NCBI GenBank assembly: GCA_016793645.1
Contig: JAEUHD010000006.1
Location: 1-32,439 of the forward strand
Direction of reading: 5' to 3'
Source of the DNA: Verrucomicrobiales bacterium
GTDB taxonomy: Bacteria > Verrucomicrobiota > Verrucomicrobiia > Limisphaerales > UBA9464
DNA: 32,439 nt
Below are positions 3,245 to 31,901 of the stretch, piece after piece. A program made the translations under genes and the position numbers. The notes beneath the pieces were generated by a model. It had not been told where the DNA came from. It ran no database searches and saw nothing but the letters and a program-made list of their open reading frames with translations. Each line of letters begins with the position of its first letter. The stretch's first letter is position 1.

Positions 3245-3341
3245 ATGACGGCCTTGGACTACATCATTTCCGTTGCCTCCCTGGATTCTCCGCTCCGGTC
3301 CCTTCCGGGGTGGTCCTCCGGCAACCGAATCCCCAAAACCT

Positions 3342-6300
3342 ATGAAAGCCCTTGTCCGAACTCTCCCGGTCGTCCTGGCGCTCCTGGCGGTCCCGCAGCG
3401 CCTCGGATCCGAACCGGTTCCTGTCACGGTCCGTCTGCCCGACGCGCCGTGGAATTCCGAAGTGGTGGGCAGCGCCGCCGGTCCGGTGTGGGCCGGCGGG
3501 CATCGCTATCTGTTTTTTGTCAGCGACGTGCCGAACCTGGTCGAAAACGATTTCAACGGGCCGGGCATGGATGTCTTCCGGCGGGACACGGTCACGGGAA
3601 GGACGGAGTTGGTGACCGTGTCCCGGATCCCGGGCGAGGGCGCGAATCGCGCGATCCCGGAATTCTCGGTGTCCGCGGACGGTCAGCGCGTCGCCTTTGT
3701 GACGCATGCATCGAACCTCGTGGACGGTGATACCAACGAGGCGGCGGACGTCTTTGTCCGGGACATGGAGGCGGGGACCACCACCCTGGTAAGTTGGAAT
3801 CTCGACCGCAGCGGTCCGGGCGCGGGTTCCTCCTTCAATCCGGTCCTCTCCGCGGACGGGCGGAAAGTGGTGTACGGGACGCCGGCATCCGATGTCCGGC
3901 CGGGTGCCACCCCGGGCATCGGTTTCGCGCTGTGCCTCCGCGACGTGGCTTCGGGCGATGTGACGGTGATTGGCGACTGGGCCTACCTCTATGTCGTCAG
4001 TGCTGCGGCCGACGTGGTGGCGTACCTAAGCGACGACCGTCCGGGGTCGGAGCCGGCCGGAACCGCGACCGACATCATGGTGTGGAGGGCATCCACGGGC
4101 CTGTCCGAGAGGATCCGGCTGCCGGCGGTTTTCGGCGGCGGCGTGAATGCCATTGAACGGGTGTCGATCCTGAATGTGACCCCGTCCGGAGAGTTCCTGG
4201 CGTTTTATGTGCCGGGTACGTTTGGCAGCAACAGCCAGAATACCCGGGGTATCTGGAGGGCGGACCTGAGGACGGGAACGGTGACTTCGATCTGGAACCC
4301 GGAAATGTTGGTGAACCCAATCGCGGAGGACTGGCTTTCGATTTCGGACGATGGCCGGCGACTGGCGTTCCTCATCAACAGGGACCGCGATTTCCTGGAT
4401 GGAGCCATCCGGTGTTGGACGGAGGGGAAGGGGCTTCAGAGCCTGGAGGAACTCGCCCCGCCCGGAGTCGGGACGACGGACGTCCGACGGGCGACTTCCC
4501 TGCAGATGAGTCCGGATGGCGGTCGAGTGCTGTTCTCCACGGCGGAGGCGGTTCCGGAGGCGGGACCCATGGAACCGGGCACGCCGCGGGCATTCCTCCG
4601 GGAATTGGAGTCCGGTGTGACCCGGGTGATCGCGGTGGAGGAGCGGGAACTCGACGCCGCGTTTGATGACTCCGGATCCTTCCTGGCGTACTCGCCCCAG
4701 GAGAACGACGGCGCGGGCGCCTCGTTGAAGGTGCTCGATCCGACGCTCCCGGCTCCCGTGGAGATCCTGAGTCCTGTCAATGTGACGGCTCCGGTGACTT
4801 CGGCTGCGACCTGGGCGCGGGTGGTTTCGTTGAGCGATGACGGGCGGCGCATTCTATATCGGAGCAATGCCCGGGATCTCTCCCCAACTCCGCCGTCGGC
4901 CGGGCTGGACACCTATGTTTACGACGCACTGACGGGGTCCAACCAACTCGTCAATGTCGCCGGGACGACGCCACCCGCCACGGCCTATCGGGCCCGTCGG
5001 AGTGTGATGTCTGCGGACGGCAGCACCGTGGCCCTGCTGAGTCCGGAGGCTGCGGTTGCCGGGACGACGGATTATCCGGTCAATGTCCTGGTCCAGGTCC
5101 TGGGGGAGGGAGCCCCAGTTTTGGGCAGCCCCAAGGTCGATGGAGTCCTTGGCGGAGTGGATTCGAGTGCAGGCCTGCAATTAAGCGGTGATGGGCGGCG
5201 AGTATTGTTTCGGTGGAACGAAGTGAAATCCCCGCCGCCCATTTTCTCCCGCGAAGAAGGACGGTATTTGCCTTCCGACTGGGATGCGCAGATCGGGGAA
5301 CTGACCCCGTTCTCCGAGACCGCGCTCAGTTCCGATGGCGCGAGGATCGGGGTCGCGGGCAGGGTGCCCACGGGCTGGTACGACTTTGAGGCGCGTCGTT
5401 CGCAACAGGCCATTCTGTTTGGGTCGAGTTTTGCGTATCCGATCCACACGCCATCGCAGGGGCGGAGGATGGTTGTGGGAGTTCTGCTCTTCCCGGGTGG
5501 GCCGGTGGATGTTTACCGGATCGACCCGGTCGTCGGCCAAAGGGAGCTGCGGATTTCCAGGACTGAGTATCGCCTGGGGAACCTGCTCGCCTCGGGCGAC
5601 GGAAGCACGGTGGTTGGATCCGGCCGCGCGGTTCAGGCAGCGGGAAGCGTCGCAGCGTCCCGCCAAATCTTTTCGGTGGCCATGGACTCGGGCGTGATCG
5701 AGTTGATCTCCGTGGGTGTCGATGGTCTCCCCGCCAACGGGGATTGCCGCTCCCCGCGGGTGTCCGGGGATGGACGCTTCGTGGTCTTCTCCAGTTTTGC
5801 CTCCAATCTGGTGGATGGGGACAGCAACGGGTTCGCCGACATCTTCGTCCGCGATCGATATGCGCGCGTCACCCACCGGCTGTCCCGCCGGGATGACGGC
5901 ACGCAGGAGAGCGGAAATTGTGCCGGACCCGCCATCAGCGGAGACGGGCGCACGGTGGCCTTCACCACCTTCGGAACGCGGCTGATTCCGGGAGATCCGT
6001 CCCGCGAGCCGACCGTGGTGAAGGTGTCGGTGCCGCAGTCGTCAGTTGTGGATACGGACGGCGATGGCCTTCCCGATGTCTGGGAGCAGGACCATTTCGG
6101 ATCCCGGGCGGAAGGCGCGATGGGAGATCCCGATGGAGACGGACTCACAAACCTCGACGAGTATCGCGCGCACACCTCCCCGGTGGATGAACTGTCCGGT
6201 CTGGAGATGGCGGGGTTGAGGGAGACGGCGGACGGCGTTGAGGTGGATTGGTACGGACATGCCGGCGTCCGGTATCAGTTGGAGAGTGCGGACTCCCTGG

Positions 6301-6422
6301 CGCCGGGGGCGCGGTGGACTCCGGTGGGCACTCCCATCACTGGATACGAGGGGCTCGTCCATCAGCGGTTGCAGGGCCTGGCGCCGGCGGAGTTCCTGCG
6401 GGTGGCATTGGCCCAGCCGTAA
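3342..6422 (+). CDS. Secreted PD40/TolB-like beta-propeller protein, first of tandem pair
   Basis: The 1026-residue product starts with a signal peptide (MKALVRTLPVVLALLAVPQ). Most of the chain is degenerate propeller repeats of the PD40/TolB type. The clearest read VSADGQRVAFVTHASNLVDG, then DVFVRD, and near the end VSGDGRFVVFSSFASNLVDG, then DIFVRD. Around residues 903-940 are two Asp-rich calcium-type motifs (DTDGDGLPDVWE and GDPDGDGLTNLDEY), like thrombospondin-3 or dockerin loops. The last ~60 residues form a Y-Q-L-E ... W ... F-L-R-V module shared with other proteins here. ATG 3342 is preferred over an upstream ATG at 3273 because the signal peptide starts there and the preceding CCCCAAAACCT matches the paralog. 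It is probably exported and surface-bound; the ligand or substrate is unknown. Confidence 0.88.
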   Translation: MKALVRTLPVVLALLAVPQRLGSEPVPVTVRLPDAPWNSEVVGSAAGPVWAGGHRYLFFVSDVPNLVENDFNGPGMDVFRRDTVTGRTELVTVSRIPGEGANRAIPEFSVSADGQRVAFVTHASNLVDGDTNEAADVFVRDMEAGTTTLVSWNLDRSGPGAGSSFNPVLSADGRKVVYGTPASDVRPGATPGIGFALCLRDVASGDVTVIGDWAYLYVVSAAADVVAYLSDDRPGSEPAGTATDIMVWRASTGLSERIRLPAVFGGGVNAIERVSILNVTPSGEFLAFYVPGTFGSNSQNTRGIWRADLRTGTVTSIWNPEMLVNPIAEDWLSISDDGRRLAFLINRDRDFLDGAIRCWTEGKGLQSLEELAPPGVGTTDVRRATSLQMSPDGGRVLFSTAEAVPEAGPMEPGTPRAFLRELESGVTRVIAVEERELDAAFDDSGSFLAYSPQENDGAGASLKVLDPTLPAPVEILSPVNVTAPVTSAATWARVVSLSDDGRRILYRSNARDLSPTPPSAGLDTYVYDALTGSNQLVNVAGTTPPATAYRARRSVMSADGSTVALLSPEAAVAGTTDYPVNVLVQVLGEGAPVLGSPKVDGVLGGVDSSAGLQLSGDGRRVLFRWNEVKSPPPIFSREEGRYLPSDWDAQIGELTPFSETALSSDGARIGVAGRVPTGWYDFEARRSQQAILFGSSFAYPIHTPSQGRRMVVGVLLFPGGPVDVYRIDPVVGQRELRISRTEYRLGNLLASGDGSTVVGSGRAVQAAGSVAASRQIFSVAMDSGVIELISVGVDGLPANGDCRSPRVSGDGRFVVFSSFASNLVDGDSNGFADIFVRDRYARVTHRLSRRDDGTQESGNCAGPAISGDGRTVAFTTFGTRLIPGDPSREPTVVKVSVPQSSVVDTDGDGLPDVWEQDHFGSRAEGAMGDPDGDGLTNLDEYRAHTSPVDELSGLEMAGLRETADGVEVDWYGHAGVRYQLESADSLAPGARWTPVGTPITGYEGLVHQRLQGLAPAEFLRVALAQP

Positions 6423-6619: not shown

Positions 6620-9600
6620 ATGAAGACCTTCCGGTGTTTCCGTTGGTTCCTGGTCGCTGTCATCACCAACCTCGCCGGAGCCGACCTGGTGCCGGTCTCC
6701 GTTCGGGATGCCGGATCCGCGGCTCACTCCACGGCGTCCGGCCTGTCTGGAGCCGGCGGGTTCGCCGACGGGGACCGCCAGGTCTTCTTTTTGAGTGATG
6801 CGCCGGACCTGGTCGTCGAGGATCCCAATGGCACGGTCCAGGACCTCTTTCGCAGGGATCGCCGTGACGGCCGCACGGAGTTGGTGTCCCGCGCAACACC
6901 GGGGCCCCTGGGGTATCGCCCGGTCAGCGGTTTCTCGGTTTCCGGGGATGGGCGATGGGTTGCCTTGGAATGGGGCACCGACGTCGCCGCCCTGTTCGAC
7001 ACCAACGGAGTGCCGGATATCTACGCGCGGGATTTGACCGGGGGCGCCTTTCAACTCGTCAGTGTCCGGGTGGACGGAACGGGGGCGGGGGACGCCGCAG
7101 CGCTTCATCCCCTGATCTCCTCGGATGGGCGGTTCGTCGCCTTTGAGAGTGCGTCCACGAACCTGGTGGACGCGGTGGATTCGAATGCGGCGATCGATGT
7201 CTTTCTTCGGGATCTGCAGGTGGGGCGTACGGAGTTGATCAGTGTTTCGGCGCCCGGGATTGCCGCGGACCGCGAGTCCCGGTTGCTGGCGTTGAGTGAC
7301 GACGGCTCCGTGCTCGTGATGGAAAACTCCTCGGTGGGTCCGGGATCCCTGGAAGGCCTGTCCACCGAGCTTCTCGTGTGGCGCCGCGGGGATTCCGACC
7401 TGCGTCGCGTCGTGGTACCCGGCACACCCCTCCGGCCGGTTTCCCAGCCCCTTCCGGTGGGCGAAGCCGAGTTGTCGAGGGACGGCCGGAGGCTGGCGTT
7501 CAGTTTTCCGCCTTCCGCCGCCGTACCGACGGAGACCGTCGGGATTTGGGTGTTGAACCTGCAAACCTCGGAGATGGTTCACGCATCGGGCGGTCTGGAC
7601 GTGTCCTCCTCGGCTTTGGCGTTGGGTCCTGTGCTGTCCCCGGATGGTCGCACGATCGCCTTTGAGGTCGTTCGTGGCGATGGGGAGAACCCGCGTGTCC
7701 AGGTGGGGGTTTGGAGGGAGGGGGTTGGACTGCGAACCCTGTCCGAATGGGTGGGCGGGGGTGCGGGCACCGAACCGGCATCGTCGGTGGATCCGGTGGT
7801 GAGTCCAGATGGCCTTGCGGTGTTGTTTGCAACGGATGCTCCCGTGCCTGAAGCCGGGGTGACGGAGTCGGGCCGGTGGCAACTGTATCACCGGGTGTTG
7901 GAGACGGGAGCCACCCGCCTCGTCAGTCGTGAGGATGGAGTGACGCTTCCGGAGTTTGACGCCACCGGACGATGGATTGTGTTGTCGGAGCAGGAGCCCG
8001 TGATGGTCCCGGGGGATCGGAATGGGCAATCGGATGTGGTGGTGGTGGGTGTCCTGGAGGGCACTCGCGAGGTGGTGTCCTTGGTGGATCCGCTGGTGAT
8101 GGGACGGACGGCCTCGGGGAACAGCCGTGGCGGCCTGCGGTGGAGTGAGGATGGACGATTCCTGGCGTTTCGTTCCGACGCACCGGACCTGGTTCCCGGG
8201 GATGGCGGCAGGACCCTGGATGCATTCCTCTTCGACCGAATTTTGGGTGTGACGGTCGTCGCCACCGTGACGACCAACGGAAGTCCGGCAGGGCGCTTCC
8301 TGGATGGCTGGCTCAGTGGCGACGGGCGGCGCATGGTTTTTTCCCGGGAGGGGGGTGTCCTGACCCATCCTTCGGAGGATCTCCTGTCGCAGGTGTACGT
8401 TTGGGACCGTGTCTCCCGGCGACTGGAACTGGCGAGTGCTGCGGACGGCGTTGAAACGGCTCTGGCGGGAGCCAACGTGTTGTTGTCCGCAAGCGCGGAT
8501 GCCCGAACGGTTGCGTTTGCGCGGGGCCTTCCCCTCGCACCCCATCTCCTTGTCCGCGATCTGGACCGGCGCCGAACCTGGGAATTGAATGATCGTATCC
8601 TATATGGCCCCGTGGCAGGCGCGGCCAGCCGCCTGCAACTTTCCTCCGATGGGCGGGTCGCCTATCTGGGATCCCCCCGGCAGACGGGATATGTGGTCGT
8701 ACGGTTCGGGGACACGTGGGTAAAGGCGTTTGATGTCCTCGGGCGCGACGCCGTGCTCTGCGGCGACGGGCGGCACCTGGTGTATCGAAGGGATCGATTC
8801 GACGGGGATCCGGGAGTCTTCATCCAAGACATCCCGCAGGGAACGGTTCGGAGGTTGACCGACGCGGTTTGGACTCCACGAGAAATGCAGTCCACACCGG
8901 ATGGCGCGGTGTTGGTCTATGCGCGGACGGCCGATCCCGGGGCGGCCCCTGGGACGTCCCCGGTTCAGGTTTGGTCGATGCGGACGGCGACGGGGCAGGA
9001 GGAACTGATCAGTCGGACGCCCGGGGGGAACCCGGGTTCCGCGGACAGCCGCGAGCCGGTGATCTCCTCCGACGGACGATTCGTGGTCTTTCGGAGCTTC
9101 GCCGCAGATTTGGTCCCCGGGGACTCCAATGCGCAGCAGGACATTTTTGTCCATGATCGTTACACGGGGCACACCACCTTGTTGTCGCGCTCCGAATCCG
9201 GTTCGCTGGGAAATTCCCTCTCGACCCGACCGGAAATCAGCGCGGACGGACGGTTCGTCGCCTTCACCACCTTTGCAGACAATCTGGTTTCCGGAGATGG
9301 GAACGGGTCGGGCGACGTGGTGATGACGCCCCTGTCCTGGGAGTCCGCGCCCGACCTTGACGGCGATGGTTTGCCCGACGGATGGGAGCGGGACCAGTTT
9401 GGATCCCTGGCGGAGGATTCGGGTGGAGACCCGGACGGCGACGGGACGAACAACGCTGCGGAGTACTCCGCAAGGACGGTTCCCACGGATCCCGCGTCGC
9501 TATGGAAGGTCGTTGTCTCCGGGGATGCCGGACGCCCCGGACTTGAGTGGATTGGACACGCCGGGGTTTCGTATCGCGTGCAACGGAGAGATTCCCTCGG

Positions 9601-9715
9601 CGGGACGCTGGAGTGGACCCAGGTGGGCGACCTGATTTCCGGGTATGGCGGGATACTTCGGGCGGAACTTCCGGAGACCGCGGCCGGAGGATTCTTTCGT
9701 GTAGTCGTGGAATAG
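6620..9715 (+). CDS. Secreted PD40/TolB-like beta-propeller protein, second of tandem pair
   Basis: The 1031-residue product is a paralog of the preceding gene in length, layout and motifs. A short signal peptide (MKTFRCFRWFLVAVITNLAG) leads into a sequence starting ADLVPVSVRD, against SEPVPVTVRL in the first copy. Propeller repeats recur, for example ISSDGRFVAFESASTNLVD and ISSDGRFVVFRSFAADLVPG followed by DIFVHD. From about residue 912 come DLDGDGLPDGWE and GDPDGDGTNNAAEY, then a C-terminal module (GHAGVSYRVQ ... EWTQVGDLISGY ... FFRVVVE). The copies have diverged widely, so the duplication is old. The ATG follows CCCCAAACCC rather than a Shine-Dalgarno sequence. Likely an exported surface protein; the partner is unknown. 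Confidence 0.88.
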   Translation: MKTFRCFRWFLVAVITNLAGADLVPVSVRDAGSAAHSTASGLSGAGGFADGDRQVFFLSDAPDLVVEDPNGTVQDLFRRDRRDGRTELVSRATPGPLGYRPVSGFSVSGDGRWVALEWGTDVAALFDTNGVPDIYARDLTGGAFQLVSVRVDGTGAGDAAALHPLISSDGRFVAFESASTNLVDAVDSNAAIDVFLRDLQVGRTELISVSAPGIAADRESRLLALSDDGSVLVMENSSVGPGSLEGLSTELLVWRRGDSDLRRVVVPGTPLRPVSQPLPVGEAELSRDGRRLAFSFPPSAAVPTETVGIWVLNLQTSEMVHASGGLDVSSSALALGPVLSPDGRTIAFEVVRGDGENPRVQVGVWREGVGLRTLSEWVGGGAGTEPASSVDPVVSPDGLAVLFATDAPVPEAGVTESGRWQLYHRVLETGATRLVSREDGVTLPEFDATGRWIVLSEQEPVMVPGDRNGQSDVVVVGVLEGTREVVSLVDPLVMGRTASGNSRGGLRWSEDGRFLAFRSDAPDLVPGDGGRTLDAFLFDRILGVTVVATVTTNGSPAGRFLDGWLSGDGRRMVFSREGGVLTHPSEDLLSQVYVWDRVSRRLELASAADGVETALAGANVLLSASADARTVAFARGLPLAPHLLVRDLDRRRTWELNDRILYGPVAGAASRLQLSSDGRVAYLGSPRQTGYVVVRFGDTWVKAFDVLGRDAVLCGDGRHLVYRRDRFDGDPGVFIQDIPQGTVRRLTDAVWTPREMQSTPDGAVLVYARTADPGAAPGTSPVQVWSMRTATGQEELISRTPGGNPGSADSREPVISSDGRFVVFRSFAADLVPGDSNAQQDIFVHDRYTGHTTLLSRSESGSLGNSLSTRPEISADGRFVAFTTFADNLVSGDGNGSGDVVMTPLSWESAPDLDGDGLPDGWERDQFGSLAEDSGGDPDGDGTNNAAEYSARTVPTDPASLWKVVVSGDAGRPGLEWIGHAGVSYRVQRRDSLGGTLEWTQVGDLISGYGGILRAELPETAAGGFFRVVVE

Positions 9716-15330: not shown

Positions 15331-17817
15331 TTATGGAGAATTTGCCCGAATGCGGACGGACCCCGGAGGCTTCACCTGTCCGGGCCAGTGGGTCCAGTCG
15401 GCTCCCGGATCCTCCCGGAGGGATCGGGGTATGCGGGACATGACCTGTGCGGCGAGATTGGGGAAGACGGGGGCGTTGACCCGACGGGCCACTTCCAGTG
15501 TCAGAAAGAATTGTCCGGAGTCCTGCGCTTCGCGCAGCGCCGGGGGCAGCGGACCCGGATGAGTCTTCAGAACCTCCCGAAGGTATTCCGCCTCAGGAAC
15601 TCCGATGAACCAGGGGGCGCGAAGTCCGACCACATTGCGTCCGGCATCCCATTCCAGCCACGCGTTGCCGAGCGTGTTCACGGGACCCGGGCCCGGATCC
15701 GGAACGACTCCCACGACGCACAGGGCAACACCTTCGGGATGTCGGGCCAGCGGATCGGCGACCGGAGCGTGTTCGCGCAATTGATCGCAGGCGTCGCGCA
15801 CCAGGCTCCAATCCACCTGGGCGAGCGGCGTGCCGTCGGCGAAGGCGCACAGTCCGACAATGGGAAGTTCCGGATAGAAATCGCCGCGCAGAAGGAAGGC
15901 GTTGGGGAACTCGGAGAGAAAGGTGCGGGTGATGACGTTGTATTGGGTGCGCGTGAGCTGGAACAGCGGAAGCCACTGGCAGAAGAGCCCGTCGGGACGG
16001 AGGGCCTTGCGGACGGCCGCGAATTGTTCGCGGGCATACATCCGTCCCTCACCGGTCCGCCACGGCAGAAACAGGTCGCCGAGGATCACGTCGTAACGTC
16101 CGGGATTGCGCGCGATGCCCCAGCGGGCGTCCTGCACGGTGAGTTGTACCCGCGGGTCCTTGAAGACGTCGCGATTGAAGGGGCCGAACCAGTTGGAAGC
16201 GAAACCCGCGGCGAGCGGACTCAACTCAAAGGCGTCGATGCGTTCGATTCCGGGATGCAGGGCGGCGCCGGCGAGCGTGCTGCCGGTCGCGACGCCCATC
16301 AGGGCGACCGAATGTGCGTGACCATGAATCAGGAGGGGGAGATGGGCCTGTCGCTCCTGGTTGAACTGCGCCCGCGAGCCTCCGAGCGTGTAGGTGTTGT
16401 TGAAGACAATTCGCCAATCGTTGGTGTCCTGAACGACGGTGGCCACGACGCCTTCGCGTCCGGCACGCACTGCGACCACGCGTTCGCCCGGAACCGGACT
16501 GACCTGGGGCCGTCGTGCCGCGGAGGCCCAGCTCAAACTCCAAAGCGCGAATCCGCCGAGGGCGAGGGCGGCGAGGGCAGGCCGGATGAGAATCCGCGGA
16601 TGGGCTGCATGTCTTCGGCTTGCGAGCAGAAGGATGGCCGTCACCAGATAGGCTCCTCCGGCGGCGACCGGGGTGCGCCAGAGCCCGAGCGCAGGCAGCA
16701 CCAGGGACTGCGTGAGTTCCGCACCGATCCAACCGCCGAGTCCATTCAAGGCCAGCCAGGCGGCGAGGGTGCGCGGCGACGTGGAGCCTCGGAGGAGGAG
16801 AGGAAAGAGAAGCCCGGCGGCCGCAAACGCCGGTGCCACCGCGATGGCGGCGAGGCCGCCGAGCCGCAGGAAGTAGGGCAGCGGAGCGAGTTCGTAGGGG
16901 AGGATCTGAAGTCCGGGGCGGACCAGGAACAGGGCCGCAGGCTGGAGAATCCACAGAACGGCGGCGCAGAACACGGCCGGCGGAATGGCTTGATCGGGAA
17001 AGGCGCGGATTCGTCCCGCCACGGCCGACGCGGCGGCGAGCGCCAGCAGGATGGCCGCGAGAATCGCCGCGCTGGAGAAATGGGAATTGATGGTCACCTG
17101 CGCCAGTTGGTGCTGGGTCACGACCTCGGATCCGAGGACGAGGAATCCGGAAAGAAACGCGAGTGCTCCGGCGAAGCGGGGAGCGGGCAGAGCGGGGGAT
17201 TTCGGATCCTCGAGGAGCGATTCCCTGGGGGCCCCACAGGACAGAACGGCGGCCCCGGCTGCGATCGCCAGACTCAGTCCGCAGGCGGCCAAGCCCGCGC
17301 CCAGCAGGCCGAACGAGGGGAGGGAAACGAAGACCGTCATCAGGACTCCGACGACTCCGCCAAACGTGTTCACGGCGTAGGCGCGAACGGCAAAGCCGGG
17401 CTCGGGAACTGCGGAGAGTGCTGCCGGCAGGACCAGTCCCATGGCGATCGCGGGCGGGATCACGAGAATCGCCGGCAGGATCCAGGGAAGGGTGGTGGTG
17501 GTCCACGTCCCCTGCTGGAGGACATCCGCAAGGGGGACGGCGGACATCACGCCTGCGCCCAGGATTCCGACCAGCAGTTCCGCCCATGCCATGCGGCGCC
17601 AGCCGGTCCGGGCAGGAGCCGGGAACAGGGCGGCCAAAGCGCCCCCGAGGGCGAGACCGAAGCAGAAGGCGCCAACAACGCGCGCGAACGTTCCGGCGCT
17701 GGCTCCAAGGACGTCGACGAGACGTCGGGTCCAGACCAGTTGATGGGACAACGCCGCCGTGCCGCTCAGGAACAGGAGGACGAACGCCGGCCGGGTTTCG
17801 CGGGTCGCCGCCGTCAC
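15331..17817 (-). CDS. Membrane-embedded spermidine-synthase-like protein
   Basis: The 828-residue product joins a membrane half (residues ~1-440, roughly twelve hydrophobic segments, starting FVLLFLSGTAALSHQLVWTR) to a spermidine-synthase-like Rossmann half. The SAM-fold marks are VALMGVATGSTLAGAA near residue 504, the acidic turn DAFELSP near 527, and YDVILGDLFLPW near 575-585. This MFS-like/spermidine-synthase fusion is widespread in environmental bacteria; polyamine synthesis has generally not been shown, and the acceptor may be something else. It starts with GTG at 17817, overlapping the stop of the upstream secreted-protein gene by 4 bp (GTGA), so translation is probably coupled. A long plus-strand frame covers the region but shows no protein family features. 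Confidence 0.85.
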   Translation of the reverse strand: MTAATRETRPAFVLLFLSGTAALSHQLVWTRRLVDVLGASAGTFARVVGAFCFGLALGGALAALFPAPARTGWRRMAWAELLVGILGAGVMSAVPLADVLQQGTWTTTTLPWILPAILVIPPAIAMGLVLPAALSAVPEPGFAVRAYAVNTFGGVVGVLMTVFVSLPSFGLLGAGLAACGLSLAIAAGAAVLSCGAPRESLLEDPKSPALPAPRFAGALAFLSGFLVLGSEVVTQHQLAQVTINSHFSSAAILAAILLALAAASAVAGRIRAFPDQAIPPAVFCAAVLWILQPAALFLVRPGLQILPYELAPLPYFLRLGGLAAIAVAPAFAAAGLLFPLLLRGSTSPRTLAAWLALNGLGGWIGAELTQSLVLPALGLWRTPVAAGGAYLVTAILLLASRRHAAHPRILIRPALAALALGGFALWSLSWASAARRPQVSPVPGERVVAVRAGREGVVATVVQDTNDWRIVFNNTYTLGGSRAQFNQERQAHLPLLIHGHAHSVALMGVATGSTLAGAALHPGIERIDAFELSPLAAGFASNWFGPFNRDVFKDPRVQLTVQDARWGIARNPGRYDVILGDLFLPWRTGEGRMYAREQFAAVRKALRPDGLFCQWLPLFQLTRTQYNVITRTFLSEFPNAFLLRGDFYPELPIVGLCAFADGTPLAQVDWSLVRDACDQLREHAPVADPLARHPEGVALCVVGVVPDPGPGPVNTLGNAWLEWDAGRNVVGLRAPWFIGVPEAEYLREVLKTHPGPLPPALREAQDSGQFFLTLEVARRVNAPVFPNLAAQVMSRIPRSLREDPGADWTHWPGQVKPPGSVRIRANSP

Positions 17818-18686
17818 AGGGGTTCACGCCTCAGGCGGAGGAAGCGGACGTCTCCGCCGGTGCCCAAGGCGACGGTGTGCAGGTGGTTGTCTCCCGTCAC
17901 GGGATCGCCGATCGGGGCCCAGGGAGCCGGGCCGTCGAGTTGCGGACGTTCCTCAATGAAATACCGGAAGTCATTGGCGGCAGCGAAGGTGACCTCCAGT
18001 CCTTCGGTGCCGACCTGGATGTGCGCGAGGGTGATTCCAGATTGGAAATGCAGGAAGAATCGGGGGGATGGTGCGTGCAGGGGTCCACCGCCAGGCCCAT
18101 TTGAGGACGTGTCCACGAATCGGAAACCAACCCGATAGAGACCGGGTTCCGTGGCGCTGAAGACGCGACCGTGGATGTGTCCGAATGGGTCCGCGTCGGG
18201 TGAGCCGTCATTTTCGCTGACGGGAAATCCCCGGGTCCCCTGCGTTTCTCCGACGGGAACGCTGAAGGTCAGTTCGGTGGCGGTGATTTCATCCCCGGGC
18301 GATTCCCAGAATCCCAGGGATCCTCCGGCGGGGCCTTCCACGGTTTCGATGACGGCGTCCACGTGGGTGCCGGGGACGGGATGAAACGGTGCGGGGCCGC
18401 CGCGGTCCGGCGTGGCGGGCTGGCACACGAAGGTCAATTCGGCATGGTGATACCCGGCATAGGGCCCATTAGTGGACAGTTCCAGAGGGACGACATAGCC
18501 CGATTCCGTGGCGTAGTTGGCGGCATTCACAAACAGCAGTGCGGATCCCGCCTCGGGCAGTTGGGCGCCGGCGGCGAGGTGTTCGTGAGCCTTCGGAATT
18601 GCCGGGAGGGCGAGGGCGAGAACCAGGGGCAGGAGCCGGAGCCGCATCCGACAGAGGTCGGTGCGAAAATTGGGACTTCGATTCAT
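17814..18686 (-). CDS. Secreted protein resembling choice-of-anchor M proteins, non-PEP-CTERM paralog
   Basis: The ~290-residue product has a signal sequence (MRLRLLPLVLALALPAIPKA) after a basic leader. The mature part begins HEHLAAGAQ. It is a clear paralog of the next upstream gene: SGYVVPLELSTNGPYAGYHH, VEGPAGGSLGFWE, DADPFGHIHGR, PGLYRVGFRFVDTSSNG. The GP..F..W and GH-H-R-F...G-Y-V-F pattern resembles choice-of-anchor M domains, though this is recognition from memory. Where the paralog has a PEP-CTERM tail, this protein has a ~60-residue module (RYFIEE ... PWAPIGDPVTGD ... FLRLRREPL). Three starts are possible (18722, 18686, 18647); ATG 18686 gives a normal leader. Histidine-rich motifs allow a metal-related role, but nothing proves it. 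Confidence 0.75.
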   Translation of the reverse strand: MNRSPNFRTDLCRMRLRLLPLVLALALPAIPKAHEHLAAGAQLPEAGSALLFVNAANYATESGYVVPLELSTNGPYAGYHHAELTFVCQPATPDRGGPAPFHPVPGTHVDAVIETVEGPAGGSLGFWESPGDEITATELTFSVPVGETQGTRGFPVSENDGSPDADPFGHIHGRVFSATEPGLYRVGFRFVDTSSNGPGGGPLHAPSPRFFLHFQSGITLAHIQVGTEGLEVTFAAANDFRYFIEERPQLDGPAPWAPIGDPVTGDNHLHTVALGTGGDVRFLRLRREPL

Positions 18687-18823
18687 GCAGGCTTTGCTTT
18701 CAAACTGTGGGTGTGGGGCCAAGGGGGCCGTTCCAAGCCGGTGATGGAGCGGGTGTGCCTCCTATCCATCGCCGGTTTCCGGTCCTCTTGCGTCCCCACA
18801 CCCGTGATTGATTCGGCGTCGGA

Positions 18824-19531
18824 TCAACGCCGGCGCATCACCCATCCGAGGGTGAGGAATCCGAGGGCTCCCAGCGCCAGGGTCCCGGGTTCAGGAACGG
18901 CGCTGAATCGGATTTCCAGCGTGGCGCTGGGGCTCTGGATGGGGCCGCCGCCGACCCCGTTGACCGAGGTGTCCACGGCGCGGAGTCCGACCGTGTAATC
19001 CCCCGTGATGGTGGTCGTGAAGCGGCGCCCGTGGAGGTGTCCGTACGGATCCGCCCCCGGATTGCCGGCGCCCAGTGCAGCGTCACTGAGCGCGATCAGG
19101 TTCGGGTCGGCTCCGGCCGTGTATCCCGACGCATAGCTGAAGGTCGGAGCGGTCGCTTCGTCCTCCCAGATCTGGAAGGCCCCGCCGGCAGGTCCCTGCA
19201 CCGAGACGATCTCGTACTGGATGAACGATCCGTTCGCGGCGCTGTTCGGGTCGGCGACGTATGGGATGCCGTCCGCGTCCGTTCCCGACTGGGAATGGAC
19301 CGCGGTCAGGGTGATGCCTCCCTCGTAGAATCCCGCGTAGGTTCCGGACGTCGCAAAGTTGAGCTGTTTGACGTAGCCGGAACTGGCGGCGAAGTCGGCA
19401 CCGTTGAGGAAGGACAGGGCATCGCCCTGGTTTTTTCCGACGGCCCCGGTGTTGAGATGCCCGTGCTGGGCGTAGATCGGCGCGGCCGCGGCGATGAGGC
19501 CGAGTCCGAGCGCGAGTGGGTTGAGGTTCAT
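18824..19531 (-). CDS. PEP-CTERM secreted protein, paralog of downstream gene
   Basis: The 235-residue product starts MNLNPLALGLGLIAAAAPIYA, a signal peptide, and the mature chain opens QHGHLNTGAVG. The C-terminus has the full PEP-CTERM pattern: VPEPG, a hydrophobic helix (TLALGALGFLTLGW) and the basic end VMRRR. Such tails are removed by an exosortase in the inner membrane. The core shares with its neighbour SGYVKQLNFATSGTYAGFYE, VQGPAGGAFQIWED, ADPYGHLHGR and GDYTVGLRAVDTSVNG. The start was set at ATG 19531, 29 bp after the pseudopilin stop, because the signal peptide begins there; AGGAACC lies about 15 bp upstream. The two genes are separated by 137 bp. No exosortase gene lies in this window. 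The ligand is unknown; choice-of-anchor M-like similarity is suggested but weak. Confidence 0.85.
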   Translation of the reverse strand: MNLNPLALGLGLIAAAAPIYAQHGHLNTGAVGKNQGDALSFLNGADFAASSGYVKQLNFATSGTYAGFYEGGITLTAVHSQSGTDADGIPYVADPNSAANGSFIQYEIVSVQGPAGGAFQIWEDEATAPTFSYASGYTAGADPNLIALSDAALGAGNPGADPYGHLHGRRFTTTITGDYTVGLRAVDTSVNGVGGGPIQSPSATLEIRFSAVPEPGTLALGALGFLTLGWVMRRR

Positions 19532-19560: not shown

Positions 19561-20232
19561 TCAGGGTGTGTTGCTGGTGAGTCCGTCGGGACGCACAAAG
19601 CGCGTCACGGGCGGACCCAAAAGGAGGCGGACGGTCGGCCATCGGAGGCCGGAAACGTGGGCGTCCGCGTACAGATAATTGGCGGAGTTCCGGTGTCGCT
19701 GGACCGCGACGTCCCGGGGAAACGCATTGGTGGTGAATCCACCCCCGGACGTGTCCGCGAAATGGAAGTGGTCGGATCCGTCGAACGTGTTGGCGGCTTC
19801 GGCCAGGTGAAGCGTTTCGGTGGGGGCGGGGATGGAGGTCAACCGCGAAAAGTCCAGGGTGGCGGCGCCGTAGGGATGCGGTGTCAGAAAATCGTTGATC
19901 GCGTAGCTGTTCAACCGGGCCCGATTCGTGTCGAGCGGGCATCGGTACACGTTGGTGAGTCCGTAGGCGGCGAGCCGGCCGATCCACGACGCCCCCTGGT
20001 GGGCGGAGAGCGGCAGCACATCCCGATTGTCTCCGGCGTAGAGGGCGCATCCGATCCCGAGTTGCCTCAGGTTGGAGAGACAGGCGGTGGCCCGGGCCCG
20101 GGCGCGGGCCCCGGCCAGGGCGGGCAAAAGCATTCCGGCCAGGATCGCAATGATGGCGATCACCACGAGCAGTTCGATCAGGGTGAAGGCCCTGGGAACT
20201 CCTCCGGGGCTCCTGTGGACGCGTTCGGACAT
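19561..20232 (-). CDS. Type II secretion-like pseudopilin with H-X9-DG-type C-terminus
   Basis: The product of about 223 residues has a class III prepilin signal: a short charged leader ending in R-A, then [18 protein letters not shown] with the E at position +5. Downstream are [19 protein letters not shown] and, near the end, [20 protein letters not shown]. These fit the pseudopilin group very abundant in Verrucomicrobiota and Planctomycetota (prepilin-type cleavage domain with an H-X9-DG-like end). The leader would be cut by PilD and the protein packed into a pseudopilus or left in the membrane. An ATG at 20292 would give a 34-residue leader; ATG 20232 is preferred. It lies 29 bp ahead of the PEP-CTERM gene and is probably co-transcribed with it. 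Confidence 0.85.
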
Positions 20233-20476
20233 GTCGGATGCGGCCGAGTCCGGATTCGGGGTGGTGGAAGGCGCGTGAATCCGGAGGCGCATCCTTCCGG
20301 GACGCCGGTGGGCGTCCGTGGGGATCCAGGAGGGGGACGCCAGGACCGGACGCGGGCGCGATCAGAACGCGCGAATCCGGAGGTCGGGCGGAGCGGGTGG
20401 GACGAGGGGCGGGCCGGGAACGGGCTGTTCGCTACGGCGCGGAACCGACGATCACGGGCGGTCCGGGGACCGGCGT

Positions 20477-20851
20477 TCAGGCAACCCGGGGAGGAGGGAG
20501 GGGCGGAGCGTCGCGTCGGGACTCCGGTGGGTCCTCCGCCTGCGTAAGGAACACGGGAGCGGCTGCGGGAACCGGGGTCCAGAACGAGAGACCGTTGCGG
20601 ATGATTTCCAGCTTCGACTGCTTCAGCGGAAGCTTTGCGGTCTCGCCGGCCGATGTTCCCGCCCGGACCACCTGGCAGAGTTTGCAGGGGTGCTGTCCGT
20701 CAAACGTGGTCGCCAGCGCCGTCCGCAGCGAGGCGTTGCAGGAGCGCTCGATCACCATGGTGGTCCACGCCACCGACTGAAGCGCCACCCAATGCAGCCC
20801 CAGCGTCAGGCAGAGCAGCAGGGCCGCGATGAGGTGGACACAACGTTTCAC
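20477..20851 (-). CDS. Small membrane/secreted protein with HPCxLC motif
   Basis: The ~124-residue product has an N-terminal hydrophobic segment (VHLIAALLLCLTLGLHWVAL), then TTFDGQHPCKLCQVVRAG, then a proline-rich C-terminus (PPESRRDAPPLPPPRVA). From memory, similar uncharacterised proteins with FDGxHPCxLC occur in other Verrucomicrobiota, often near metal-efflux genes; I could not check this. The CxxC pair could bind a metal or be redox active on the outer face of the inner membrane. No ATG fits: GTG at 20851 (then KRC) is preferred, TTG at 20857 is the alternative. It lies 184-245 bp upstream of the pseudopilin gene on the same strand. Confidence 0.65.
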   Translation of the reverse strand: MKRCVHLIAALLLCLTLGLHWVALQSVAWTTMVIERSCNASLRTALATTFDGQHPCKLCQVVRAGTSAGETAKLPLKQSKLEIIRNGLSFWTPVPAAAPVFLTQAEDPPESRRDAPPLPPPRVA

Positions 20852-20909
20852 GAGCAAGGGGAATCTACGGGAGGCTGAAGCGCATCGTCAATGGAACGGT
20901 GCCGAAGGC

Positions 20910-26033: not shown

Positions 26034-29000
26034 TCAGGGTGTGACCACGCGATAGAACCGGGCGGGGCGCTGGGAAGCGGGGGTGGTGTCGGGGATCTCG
26101 ACCTCGCGGGGAGCATCCCCGGCAATGGTGTTTTCGAGCAGTTGCCAGTCGTTGTTTCCAACGCTGGCATTGCGAAATTGGATCCGGTAGGTGCGCCCGG
26201 GGATCGCGAGGAAATGGAGCCGCACGGATCCGTCGGTCGTCGCGTCCAGCGCCAGACCGAGGAGACTGGCGGGATTCCACGGATCGGTTCCCGCCGCAAA
26301 CTCCGCGGCGTTGCTGAACCCGTCCCCATCCGCATCCAAGGCGGCGTCCGAGGCGTTGTCGGGATCCAGCCGGTTGGCCAGTTCCCAGGCATCCGGAATG
26401 CCGTCCCCGTCGGTGTCCAAATTCGGGGGCGCGTTGGGGGCGAGCGGGGAGAGGTTGGCGAGGCGGCGGATCCGCGGGGACCCGTCGGGGATGCGTCCCT
26501 CGGAAAAGTCGGGGGACTGGACGCCGAAGTGGATGGCGTCGATGAGGGAGAGGTCCGGACGGGACAGGCGGAGGGTCTCGCCGAATTGGTCGAGCCGGAA
26601 GTTGAGATGATCGGGACCCAGCCGGGGGGACGCGTCGGCGAAAAAGCGTACAAATCCGCCGGCCGGGACAAAGCTGAGCGGGACGATGGGGAATTGGGAG
26701 ATTCCCGAGAGCGAGGGGTCGTCCGTCAGAAAGTGTCCCCCGAGGTCGACGGGCAGGGATCCGGGATTGATGAGTTCCACCCATTCGTCGTCCGACGTGT
26801 TGACGGCGAGCCATTCATTGAACAGGACGGCCCCCGTGTCGCCGAGGGGTGTTGCGAGGCTGTTGGCGGTGGCCGGGGTGGGGGCGGCCATCAAGGCCCA
26901 GCCTTCGACCGTTCTGCCCGCGGAGCGGTCCACGAGTTGGGATCCGTAGGAAAGCCGGTCGAGCAGCCGGCCGCGGGCGTCGACCAGTTCCAGAAGGGCT
27001 CCCGTATCGGGAAGATCCAGTCCGAGGTTGGGAGTGTTCCCCGGAAGCCGTCTTGAGGTGGCCCAGACGATCCGGCGTTCGGAAGGGCTGAGGAGGGATC
27101 CGGACGGGAAGGTCCAGGCATCGAACCCGTCGAGGCGCAGGACTGTGCCGGAGAAATCCACGGGGGATGCGGAGACGTTCTCGATCTCCACCCAGTCGGC
27201 GACGCTGCCACCGGGCGCCGCCACGGCCGTGAGATTGCGGGCCATGAATTCGCTGAACCGGAGGGTGGCCCCGGGGGCGGCGAGGTAGTTGCTTGTCCCC
27301 CGGGAGGCGCTGAAGGGGAGCGGCGTCCAGTCCCCGTTTCCATCGGGGATGCGCCCGAAGGAAACCCCCGGTGTCTGGGCCGGGTACACCACCTGGCTCA
27401 ACGGGACGCCCTGCGGGTCGGCGAGGGCGATCAGGCCTGCGGTGGCGGGGAGTTTGAAGCCGAGGTGTCCGTGGCCCGAATCCCCGTCGGCCTTGAGGAC
27501 CGCAAAGCCTCCGGGCGCGATGAACACCGGGGCGCGGACCTGGAACAGGGCGTTGCTCGTGGTGAGGAAACTTCCGGTGACGACGGCGGGCAGCTCCGAG
27601 GGATTGTGCAATTCGAGCCAGTCATCCGCGTCATCGGAGTTGGCGAGGAATTCGTTGAGCGCGAGGGAGGATGGCGGTGCGGTCGCGGCGGGTTCATTGG
27701 CCGCGCCGGGAGTCGGATCGCACAGGGCCCAGGTCCCGGACGGTTCCAGTCGTCCCACGGTGAATCCTGCCGCCTGCGGCCCGTAGGCGAGGGAATCCAC
27801 GACGTTGGTTCCGGCATCGAAGAGCGCCACCGTCTCGCCGTCGTCGTCGAGGGAGAATCCGGTCCCGCTGTCGCCGGTGGAGAGCAGGACCCGGAGATAG
27901 CCTCCGGCGGAAATCCGGGAGCCGGATGGAAACACGTGGCGTCGGGGATCGGAGGGACTGTCGGTCAGGCTCCATCCCGCCAGATCCGCGGTTGCGGTGC
28001 CGCGATTGTGGAGTTCGATCCAGTCGCCGTCCGGAAGGGCGGACGCGACCTCGTTGAGTTCGATGATGCTTCGGGTGGCGGGAGCGTTGTCGGCGCCCGG
28101 CGATCCGCCCTTGGAGGCGCTGATCTGCCAGGTCGCGGCGGCACTGGGATCCCCGGTGAGGTTTCGGAGTTCCAGTGAGTATCCCTTGCCGTCCGCCGCC
28201 GCGGGCCAGGTGCCGCTGTCGCCGTAGGTGACCGAGTCGACGATGCGTCCATCGCGGTCGAGGAGCGCGATGCGTTCGCCGCCGTTGGAGAGGGAACCTG
28301 CGAAGGATGCGGTCACCGGGATTCCGGGGTAGCGCGCGGCGAAATCCGACGGCTTGGTGTCGTTGGCGAGCACCCACCGGGCACCGGGGGGGAGCACGGG
28401 AAACGGGGTGGCAAAGCGCAGGTTGATGCCCTCGAAGGAGAACCCCGAAAGATCGACGGGTGTGGCGCCGGTGTTGTGGAGTTCGACGTATTCGAAGGCA
28501 TCGCCTCCCGGCGGATTGTACATCAGCTCCGAGATCCGGACCGGGATGCCGCCGGCGGTGACCTGGAACCGGGCCTCGGTCAATGCGCTCCAGTTGGTCG
28601 TATCCGTGAGCGTGCGGGCGCGCAGCAGGAGGGGGTCGCCGATGACCAGGGGCGTCTCGTACCGGCGGGCGGTCGGGGAAATCGCGTCGGTGAAGGGGAG
28701 CCGCGGGTCGGATCCATCGAGCGTGTAGTAGATGTCCCCCGAGACATTGGTCAGGGTGAGTGCGTAACCGGAGGGCACGGTGCCGCCGAACGGACTGAAC
28801 CCCGGGGCGTTGGTGGAGCGGAGGAATCCGGCGCGGTCCAGGTGGCTGAGCACATTCCGGCGGCGTCCGTTGATCCAGCCCGCGATGAGGGTGTTGCGGA
28901 ATCCGTTGATGACGGTCGTCGCGCGGCTGCGGGACTTGATCTCCTCGTATCGGCGCCGGAGGTTGTCGTCGGTCAGGGCGCCCCCGTTGAAGAAGGCGCG

Positions 29001-31901
29001 GTGAACCCGGTCGGCGAAGAGGAGGCGGAATTCCGGGCTGCGCTTCAGTCCGTTGAAGACGCGGGCGATCTCGGTGCCTCCCCAGGGCGGGCTGGTGGAG
29101 GACAACTGGCCGCTGATCGTGTTGAAGCTGGAGCTGTGCCCGTTGGGATCCCCAAAGCTCCACTCGACATCCCAGTTGTAGAACCGCCAGAGCCCCCCGG
29201 GCTTTCGCTCCCGCGCCGCCCGCCAGTTGTTGTGCGGCCAATCGTCGGCGTCCGCGTAAATCGGCATCAGCAGGTAGTCCACGAAGTTGGTGACATCCAG
29301 ACGCGCCGTGTACTTGAGGTAGTTCTCCCGGTTGGTGGCGAGGGTGGTCTGCGCGAGCTGCATCAGGGCATCCCAGGAGGCGGTGTCGCCCTCGCGTAGT
29401 TCGCTGAACGAGGCCATCAGATCCCATTGGTCGCCGCCGCCGTGATAGGTCCTGAGGAAATCGTCGTCGATGCGCTCCGCAGGATTGTAGTACCCCTTGT
29501 ACACGCCGTTGAGGAAGAGGTGCACAAAGGTCCCGTGGCTTGCCGGTATGCCCAGGTCCGAGGAGAGCTGGCGGCAGTACTCATCCTTGATGAAGGGATT
29601 TGAGGGATCGTTCATTCCCGCCCGGAGGACGAGGGTGTCGAAGGAGTCCACGGTGGTGCCGGGGAAGAGGGGATAATTCAGCCGGCCCTCGCCGTACTCG
29701 CCGCGGAAATAGAGTCGGAACGAGTACTTTCCCTCGGGCGCGCTGGTGCTGCGGTAGTTGTACAGCGACCGGATGTATCCGCCGCCCTGGAGGCGAAGTC
29801 CGGCGTTCACGTGGAAGCCGCCGTTGTCCTCGGGGCGGATGTATTCCACCGACACCGGACGCTCCCATGCCGGCCCATGTTTGTCGGTATTGCGCGGGTT
29901 GTATTCCATGATCCCGGTGCGTCCGTAGAGATTGTTGGTGGCGCTCACGAGGGACAGCGCCGGGAGCGCTCGTTGGCGGGCGTTCAGCCCGTACAGATAG
30001 GTGTGTGTGCGGACGCCCGAGGGCAGGTGATTGGCGCGGGTCGCCGCGGCGCGGATGACCCGGCTGGCGTTGATGAGGATGGGGCCGGTGTAAATGAAGC
30101 CGTTGTTGCCCACCGGCAGGGTTCCGTTGGTGGTGTACCGGATCTCGGCGCTGGGGGTCGGGCAGGCCAGGGTCAGTTGGAATGGGGTGTCGTAGTAGCC
30201 GCGTTCGACGCTGAAGTGCACCTCGTCCACCGTGTTGGTGATGGTGCTGACGCCGTTGTCCGCTCCCGGGGTCGGCGTGGCGAAATACCGCCACGTCTCC
30301 GAGGGGCCGGAACCCTGGCGTCCGTAGGAATGGTCGGCGCCCTGGTGGGGATAGTCCACCTCGCCCACCAGGGCCCGGGGCAGTTCCGGGCCATAGAGAC
30401 GGAGGGTGTCCCCGTTGGCGTTGAGCTTGAAGTCGGTGTGGAGGGGTTGCCCCGGATCGGTGCGATCCTTGGCGGAGGCCCAGATCCGGAGATAGCCGTT
30501 TGGAGGCAGGGTGACCGCGGGGAACACCCAGGCTTCGTCCGCGTCGGCGGTGTTTCCGATCGCCCAGCCGTTCAGGTTGGCGGCGGTGGTCCCGCGGTTG
30601 TGAAGCTCGATCCAGTCCTCGGGGTCCTCGTCCTCGTCCTTCTGCCCCTCCTGGTTCTCCGCGACGATCTCATTGATCACCACATCGGGCCGCGTCGCGC
30701 CCGGGGTGATGGTGTATCCCCACGGGCTCCCGCTGAATGCATGCGGGATGACCTCGGCGGACGCAATGCCGTGGTCATTGCGCCACGAAAGCAGGGAGTC
30801 GCCGGCCGGTGCGGGATCCGCAAAATGGAACCGGTAGGGGCCCGCCCCGATGCCGGTGACGGACACGGCGGGAGCGCCGTTCAGCAGCAGGTCCTGGGCA
30901 TCGACCCCGAGAACGGCATGATTGAAGGTCAACTCCACGTCGCGCAGGAATTTCAACTCCGCGCCGAACGGCGGCAGGCGCCGGGTGATGGCGGGGCCGT
31001 CGGGATCCAGGAATTCGTAGTTCCAGGACGAGCCGGGACTGGAGATGGAGAAGCGCTGCGGGGGTGTCCCGAGGTCCTGGATCCGGTGCAGCGTTCCCCA
31101 GCCGATGGCAACGGTCCCGAAGGCCGGTTGCGGGAACTCGAAGGTGTAGGTGGCGCCCGAGCCGGAGACCCGGGTGGCGGGGGATCCGTTGACCAGGAAG
31201 TGCTGGGCCTCCACGCCGGAGACGGGCTTGTTGAAGGCCACCGTGATTTCCCGAAGGGAGTTCACGATGCCCGGTGGCGGCTGGACCGAGGCGACCACCG
31301 GAGGCCCCGGGGTGAGTTCCGTCGCGGTAAGTTCCGCGGCAAAGACCAGGTCGCTGCTGGTGAGATTGACGTTGAGCACGACCACAGCGAGCACGTTCTC
31401 CCCGGCGATCAGGCGCGCTGGCGCGTCGGGGAGCGAATACGGGGTCACGCTGATGGGTTCGGGGATGTTGGCCGTGGCGGTGTCGGCGAAGCCGGGATCG
31501 CCGGCCGGGGCGTTCAGTGAGGCGACGCGGACGCCGTTCAGGTAGGCCACGAACCCGTCGTCGCACACGGCGCGGAGTTCGACATCGGTCAGATTGGCCG
31601 GATTGGATACGAAGAATTTCCGGCGCAGGAAGAGGGTGGTGTGGCTCCCGGCCATGCCTGTGAGATCCGTCCCGGAGTACCCGCCCTCCCCATATACGAA
31701 GGTGGCCGGGCCCTGTTCCCAGGCGGCGTCGTTGAATCCGCCCCGGGTCCACGCCGTGGGATCCCCCGGGGACGGAGAGGTGGTGCCGCGGAAGTACCGC
31801 CAGTCACCCTCCACGCCGATCAGGGAGATTTCCGCAGCCGGGGCGGAAAACGTCACGGCCCATAGGCACACGGCCACCAGCCATCCGAAGGGGGTTCGCA
31901 C
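26034..31901 (-). CDS. Giant secreted lamin-tail-domain / CotH protein
   Basis: The 1955-residue product has a signal peptide (RTPFGWLVAVCLWAVTFSAPAAE) after a GTG start at 31901. Domains in order: a jelly-roll-like region (~25-195, DDGFVAYLNGVRVAS); two Ig-like repeats (~200-400, NSLREITVAFNKPVSGVEAQ); a lamin tail domain (~406-540, INEIVAEN ... DWIELHNRG); an Fn3-associated/chitobiase-C-like piece (~570-596, IRYTTNGTLP); a CotH kinase-like domain (~640-1000, GYYNPAERIDDDFL near 803 and FYNWDVEWSFGD near 905); a second Fn3-associated piece (IYYTLDGSDP); and five more lamin tail domains starting near 1119, 1280, 1409, 1545 and 1687. Two Asp-rich motifs (DTDGDGIPDAWE, DADGDGFSNAAEF; ~1825-1875) and the FYRVV module end it. 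CotH domains can phosphorylate secreted proteins; whether this one is active was not tested. Likely surface-bound. Confidence 0.92.
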   Translation of the reverse strand: MRTPFGWLVAVCLWAVTFSAPAAEISLIGVEGDWRYFRGTTSPSPGDPTAWTRGGFNDAAWEQGPATFVYGEGGYSGTDLTGMAGSHTTLFLRRKFFVSNPANLTDVELRAVCDDGFVAYLNGVRVASLNAPAGDPGFADTATANIPEPISVTPYSLPDAPARLIAGENVLAVVVLNVNLTSSDLVFAAELTATELTPGPPVVASVQPPPGIVNSLREITVAFNKPVSGVEAQHFLVNGSPATRVSGSGATYTFEFPQPAFGTVAIGWGTLHRIQDLGTPPQRFSISSPGSSWNYEFLDPDGPAITRRLPPFGAELKFLRDVELTFNHAVLGVDAQDLLLNGAPAVSVTGIGAGPYRFHFADPAPAGDSLLSWRNDHGIASAEVIPHAFSGSPWGYTITPGATRPDVVINEIVAENQEGQKDEDEDPEDWIELHNRGTTAANLNGWAIGNTADADEAWVFPAVTLPPNGYLRIWASAKDRTDPGQPLHTDFKLNANGDTLRLYGPELPRALVGEVDYPHQGADHSYGRQGSGPSETWRYFATPTPGADNGVSTITNTVDEVHFSVERGYYDTPFQLTLACPTPSAEIRYTTNGTLPVGNNGFIYTGPILINASRVIRAAATRANHLPSGVRTHTYLYGLNARQRALPALSLVSATNNLYGRTGIMEYNPRNTDKHGPAWERPVSVEYIRPEDNGGFHVNAGLRLQGGGYIRSLYNYRSTSAPEGKYSFRLYFRGEYGEGRLNYPLFPGTTVDSFDTLVLRAGMNDPSNPFIKDEYCRQLSSDLGIPASHGTFVHLFLNGVYKGYYNPAERIDDDFLRTYHGGGDQWDLMASFSELREGDTASWDALMQLAQTTLATNRENYLKYTARLDVTNFVDYLLMPIYADADDWPHNNWRAARERKPGGLWRFYNWDVEWSFGDPNGHSSSFNTISGQLSSTSPPWGGTEIARVFNGLKRSPEFRLLFADRVHRAFFNGGALTDDNLRRRYEEIKSRSRATTVINGFRNTLIAGWINGRRRNVLSHLDRAGFLRSTNAPGFSPFGGTVPSGYALTLTNVSGDIYYTLDGSDPRLPFTDAISPTARRYETPLVIGDPLLLRARTLTDTTNWSALTEARFQVTAGGIPVRISELMYNPPGGDAFEYVELHNTGATPVDLSGFSFEGINLRFATPFPVLPPGARWVLANDTKPSDFAARYPGIPVTASFAGSLSNGGERIALLDRDGRIVDSVTYGDSGTWPAAADGKGYSLELRNLTGDPSAAATWQISASKGGSPGADNAPATRSIIELNEVASALPDGDWIELHNRGTATADLAGWSLTDSPSDPRRHVFPSGSRISAGGYLRVLLSTGDSGTGFSLDDDGETVALFDAGTNVVDSLAYGPQAAGFTVGRLEPSGTWALCDPTPGAANEPAATAPPSSLALNEFLANSDDADDWLELHNPSELPAVVTGSFLTTSNALFQVRAPVFIAPGGFAVLKADGDSGHGHLGFKLPATAGLIALADPQGVPLSQVVYPAQTPGVSFGRIPDGNGDWTPLPFSASRGTSNYLAAPGATLRFSEFMARNLTAVAAPGGSVADWVEIENVSASPVDFSGTVLRLDGFDAWTFPSGSLLSPSERRIVWATSRRLPGNTPNLGLDLPDTGALLELVDARGRLLDRLSYGSQLVDRSAGRTVEGWALMAAPTPATANSLATPLGDTGAVLFNEWLAVNTSDDEWVELINPGSLPVDLGGHFLTDDPSLSGISQFPIVPLSFVPAGGFVRFFADASPRLGPDHLNFRLDQFGETLRLSRPDLSLIDAIHFGVQSPDFSEGRIPDGSPRIRRLANLSPLAPNAPPNLDTDGDGIPDAWELANRLDPDNASDAALDADGDGFSNAAEFAAGTDPWNPASLLGLALDATTDGSVRLHFLAIPGRTYRIQFRNASVGNNDWQLLENTIAGDAPREVEIPDTTPASQRPARFYRVVTP

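Follow-up and report, generated by a model that had tools for sequence, protein, structure and literature searches.

A predicted β-sandwich module alternates with PEP-CTERM at the C-terminus of a secreted protein family of Verrucomicrobiota: a candidate sorting or surface-attachment domain

Introduction

The C-terminal elements GlyGly-CTERM, LPXTG and PEP-CTERM substitute for one another within protein families (PMC3237569), and the exosortase trait has been tied to exopolysaccharide (PMC1569441). The signals of T9SS are C-terminal Ig-like sandwiches, which shows, by analogy, that a folded sandwich can serve as a sorting signal (PMC4804311). Little is known of how Verrucomicrobiota position their many exported proteins on the outside of the cell. 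Here we analyse a stretch of 32,439 nucleotides from a Verrucomicrobiales genome (hereafter the window), in which two adjacent genes encode the same secreted core, followed in one case by PEP-CTERM and in the other by a module for which neither Pfam nor NCBIfam holds a model. This module ends dozens, perhaps more than 100, proteins in one genome and trades places with PEP-CTERM, and is thus a natural handle on the question. We found no description of it in the open full-text literature, which omits most subscription papers.

Results

Two adjacent paralogs with one core and two tails

The two genes, whose products we call P0001 and P0002, lie on the reverse strand (Table 1). Their cores are 40% identical over 216 columns (BLASTP, E 7e-40), and the alignment stops at FLHFQS in one and IRFSA in the other, where both bodies finish on the same strand and the tails diverge. 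The tail of P0002 shows the PEP motif, helix and basic end of PEP-CTERM at the C-terminus, and is matched by PF07589 at residues 211-234 with 24.3 bits (Pfam cut-off 20.7), a position to which a genome-wide search assigned the same model. Residues 217-290 of P0001, about 74 in all, have no match in Pfam or NCBIfam. A shared core with tails swapped at the same point is what the sequence-only reading had proposed, with correct gene coordinates for the pair, and the comparison confirms it. The host genome also encodes exosortases (PF09721, 3 matches, best E 3.6e-46), and a further copy of the core, the third, turned up on a different contig in a core search, likewise tailed by the module.

Table 1. 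Positions of the features discussed, numbered from the first letter of the window
Feature	Positions	Strand	Remarks
Module on PD40/TSP3 protein (gene 3273-6422, +)	6195-6419	+	C-terminal
Module on second PD40/TSP3 protein (gene 6620-9715, +)	9494-9712	+	C-terminal
Membrane protein with spermine synthase domain	15331-17817	-	GTG start overlaps stop of core-module gene (GTGA); relatives in 13/77 core loci
P0001 gene, core + module	17814-18686	-	290 aa; signal peptide, core domain, C-terminal module
P0001 C-terminal module	17817-18038	-	Residues 217-290, ~74 aa; predicted six-strand β-sandwich
P0001 core domain	18039-18590	-	Residues about 33-216
P0002 gene, core + PEP-CTERM	18824-19531	-	235 aa; signal peptide, core, PEP-CTERM tail
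P0002 PEP-CTERM tail	18830-18901	-	Residues 211-234; PF07589
P0002 core domain	18902-19465	-	Same core as P0001
Prepilin-like gene, upstream of core pair	19561-20292	-	PF07963; relative in 67/77 core loci
126-aa HPCxLC protein, upstream	20477-20857	-	Relative in 60/77 core loci
Module on CotH/lamin-tail/TSP3 protein (gene 26034-31901, -)	26037-26270	-	C-terminal

Within the core, GP.G, W and GH.H.R are nearly invariant, first in an alignment of 10 homologs and again in one of 60. Both P0001 and P0002 carry an H-x-H near the mature N-terminus as well as the nearly invariant GHxHGR (GHIHGR in P0001), and these motifs suggest that the core is a metal-binding secreted protein. The zinc protein ZepA/All3515 (PMC10957091) resembles the core family in being secreted, in having PEP-CTERM in one paralog and in its conserved histidines, but the core does not match that family in NCBIfam at E 1, so that this identity stays a lead only.

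Most core loci contain a relative of the prepilin-like gene, often immediately upstream of the core gene, and for this reason the HPCxLC protein, the prepilin and the core apparently make up a conserved cluster. The HPCxLC protein, for which Pfam gave no match, spans distant Verrucomicrobiota and ends in PPLPPPR in many copies. A search for palindromes upstream of the cluster found no AT-rich ones.

Tails across the core family

Searching 387 genomes with a profile and scanning 84,980 species genomes yielded, together with the host genome, a core family of 121 distinct proteins, and those records with telling names are nearly all from Verrucomicrobiota. The module forms the tail of 93 and PEP-CTERM that of 25, one has another ending and two are lost at contig ends; none carries both, an exclusivity that is partly built in because two extreme C-terminal elements cannot both come last, yet PEP-CTERM could have stood behind a module. 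In line with this division, PF07589 matches 23 of 25 PEP-class core proteins and 0 of 60 module-class ones in Pfam scans. The expectation from the sequence of the pair, that the core would be found with either tail and never with both, thus agrees with the family at large, and homologs with both tails, which were to count against it, were looked for among all 121 cores without any being found. Six regular-expression flags for a PEP-CTERM together with a module proved spurious, five being VPAS/VAAP-like strings in or beside the module and one a noise match of 2.5 bits.

All but two of the module tails in the family end within 9 aa of the protein end. Two of the 93 stand apart, a protein with 79 residues beyond its module (L108) and one whose module match is weak and divergent (L118). 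The sole complete core protein with neither tail (L087:3971-5224) runs on into a propeller-like stretch.

We also searched for further exchanges of this kind. A BLAST comparison of PEP-CTERM bodies with module bodies in the host genome returned the family of the window only. NCBIfam matches of module proteins to 'myxosortase-dependent M36' were considered as another exchange of tags and set aside, nearly all of them lying in the repeat-like C-terminal part of the model, far below its cut-off.

Exchanges and adjacent pairs on the core tree

In a quick tree of 114 cores, with SH-aLRT as its only measure of support, the tail changes at least 5 times, compared with an average of 22 when the labels are shuffled, and the strongly supported branches force at least two exchanges. 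Most PEP-CTERM and module cores fall into old paralog clades, so independent exchanges are few. The two members of the pair in the window belong to separate old groups, one made up entirely or almost entirely of PEP-CTERM copies and the other entirely of module copies.

A copy with PEP-CTERM adjoins a copy with the module, on the same strand, in 19 loci, namely the window and 18 sampled ones. Such pairs look like a duplicated gene kept with two tails, not like random replacement, and the two tails therefore probably serve different destinations rather than interchangeable ones. They also constitute a built-in comparison, with one body and two tails in one genome.

The module in the host genome and in the phylum

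The module closes three further proteins of the window, whose bodies are unrelated to the core (Table 1), and is therefore no local oddity of the pair. Two of these are large PD40/TSP3 paralogs, encoded adjacently on the forward strand and each with the module at its C-terminal end. In the host genome (5.87 Mb, 400 contigs), a profile of four module sequences gave 60 matches, and one of 75 sequences at least 141 at E ≤1 among the best 150 of 334 candidates. PEP-CTERM has 10 matches over cut-off there (17 at E 1), so that the module is by far the commoner tail, and a pattern search of the host-genome module proteins found no PEP-CTERM among them.

Among 89 host-genome matches, namely those in stop-closed frames in the stretches fetched, 79 end no more than 12 aa before the stop, 71 of them no more than 5 aa. 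Of the best matches in 40 further genomes of the phylum, one per genome, 37 ended within 4 aa of the stop. The rule of C-terminal position is not absolute, as the remaining 3 of the 40 are internal and so are several in the host genome. A module protein usually has one copy.

The partners are diverse: 57 Pfam families were found at 1e-4 among 77 module proteins, including lamin tail, TSP3, β-propellers, Ig, CotH, laminin G and metallophosphatase domains. Judged by a rough rule, a signal-peptide-like stretch opens 47 of 57 complete module open reading frames, whereas the rule picks out 3 of 41 windows taken from the interior of these proteins. Choice-of-anchor is the name given by NCBI to bodies that are found with differing C-terminal anchors; in the host genome, 7-8 residues separate the choice-of-anchor domains U (80.8 bits) and Q (71.2 bits) from a terminal module behind them.

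Across the phylum, in a survey of the best 24 candidates per genome, the module was found in 108 of 240 genomes, and exosortase occurs in 178 of 240. Exosortase accompanies the module in 107 of the 108 genomes that have it and is present in 71 of the 132 without, an association (Fisher p 2e-18, kinship ignored) that may reflect shared lineages only.

Predicted fold of the module

AlphaFold2 (AF2) models of the whole of P0001 (pLDDT 92.3, pTM 0.86) and of the module alone (pLDDT 90.4) predict a separate domain of six strands, the last of which ends one residue before the C-terminus. Since AF2 sets it apart and the same domain is found on unrelated bodies, the module is, on the predicted structure, an independent domain. 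The sequence-only reading had left room for structure prediction to decide whether the module was a separate fold or belonged to that of the core; the former is what the models give, and the latter is excluded by the same two observations.

Its structural neighbours are headed by fibronectin-III (Fn3) domains (Z 6.6, rmsd 2.7 Å over 73 residues), at a level (Z <8) that may mean a merely common arrangement, and the best Foldseek E-value is 0.055. The alignment with small Fn3 chains ends early, near residue 77 of 93 in 4lpw for example, which leaves the final Fn3 strand (G) without a counterpart in the module. None of 75 module sequences matches an Fn3 model of Pfam at E 1. Taken together, the module is predicted to be a promiscuous C-terminal domain of about 70 residues with an Ig/fibronectin-III-like fold, the final strand of which closes the protein.

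A versatile and common fold of this kind (fibronectin-III-like, Z up to 6.6) would also suit a structural end piece, which caps or stabilises secreted β-rich proteins, has spread by 3' gene fusion, does nothing for location and has been exchanged with PEP-CTERM incidentally. The frequent position of the module after TSP3 calcium-binding repeats and the dominance of old paralog clades in the core tree are in keeping with such a role. We nevertheless regard it as unlikely, because short proteins end in the module too (P0001 has 290 aa) and the PEP-CTERM paralog manages without it, and because the module stands directly behind choice-of-anchor domains.

The 75-sequence profile also matches the chitosan-binding discoidin domains 2rv9 and 4zxe (E 1e-5) over 59 positions and, at 0.03, the bacterial Fn3-like protein 3mpc. 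This raises the possibility that the module is a glycan-binding or adhesive β-sandwich, which would tether exported proteins to exopolysaccharide of the cell itself or to polysaccharide from outside, as C-terminal carbohydrate-binding modules do, and would need no dedicated sorting machine. It is carried by genomes with exosortase, a trait tied to exopolysaccharide (PMC1569441), and some copies are internal, one of them (L243) just ahead of an apparent glycoside hydrolase domain. On the other hand, the match to the discoidin domains is limited to the central hairpins, and the extreme C-terminal position, the usual single copy and partners such as propellers, lamin tails and Ig domains are unusual for carbohydrate-binding modules. 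A glycan-binding role is, to our judgement, the most plausible of the alternatives, albeit a doubtful one.

Discussion

We favour the reading of the module as a C-terminal sorting or surface-attachment domain, to which we assign a probability of roughly one half. What speaks for it is the combination of an extreme C-terminal position, unrelated exported partners, exchange with PEP-CTERM on one body and choice-of-anchor neighbours, and this set of features is close to that from which GlyGly-CTERM was inferred (PMC3237569). The sequence-only reading had gone further, in suggesting for the module a job equivalent to that of PEP-CTERM, and this stands in part. Placement, the unrelated partners, the position behind choice-of-anchor Q and U and the two or more forced exchanges argue for it; the 19 adjacent pairs and the internal copies argue against, and no partner machinery was found.

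As a sorting or attachment domain, the module would tag Sec-exported proteins of Verrucomicrobiota in the slot of PEP-CTERM, by another route. A machine of the cell envelope might recognise it and bring the protein to the outer membrane, carry it across or fix it there; speculatively, a partner could dock on the edge left exposed by the absent G strand. In PEP-CTERM/module pairs, one paralog would then be handled by the exosortase and the other by way of the module, which would bring one function to two places. A tentative extension, which we put well below the sorting or attachment role itself, is that Verrucomicrobiota possess an outer-membrane sorting or attachment pathway apart from both exosortase and T9SS, with a six-strand sandwich as the signal, a receptor that docks on its exposed edge and perhaps dozens to more than 100 client proteins in one genome. 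Whatever its role, a profile of the module would annotate many proteins that are now labelled hypothetical.

Comparison with known systems

The C-terminal domains of T9SS (RgpB CTD; PMC4804311) resemble the module in being Ig-like sandwiches of similar size, found at the extreme C-terminus of many unrelated cargos. By this position and promiscuity the module could be a divergent cargo domain whose T9SS escaped our models, a reading that we consider highly improbable. None of the 75 modules matches a T9SS sorting-domain model of Pfam or NCBIfam at E 1, six strands are predicted in place of the seven of the T9SS cargo domain, and SprA_N was found in 0 of 145 genomes of the phylum, including the host, though no control genome gave a signal either. 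T9SS CTD structures are absent among the structural matches listed for the module, which carries no weight either way.

The chitosan-binding discoidin domains of Paenibacillus chitosanase (2rv9, 4zxe) share local sequence similarity with the module, but measure about 136 residues, part of which is matched, whereas the module is predicted to adopt an Fn3-like fold. Fn3 domains, its best structural neighbours, differ in that their chain continues into a seventh strand (G), while that of the module stops on the sixth.

Choice-of-anchor families (NF041518 for Q, NF041766 for U and NF038134 for M) offer the same situation as that described here, one body with different C-terminal anchors, and Q and U directly precede the module in the host genome. 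Their models cover the body ahead of the anchor and not the anchor, and the core of the window reaches the cut-off of none (choice_anch_M, 13.7 bits against 55 in NCBIfam).

The PEP-CTERM/exosortase system (PF07589, TIGR02595; PF09721) differs from the module in the nature of the tag, PEP-CTERM being 24 residues long with a PEP motif, one helix and a basic end, and the module a predicted folded β-sandwich of about 70 residues with neither motif nor helix. Both are C-terminal and both occur on many unrelated exported proteins per genome, and in one core family PEP-CTERM occupies the same junction as the module.
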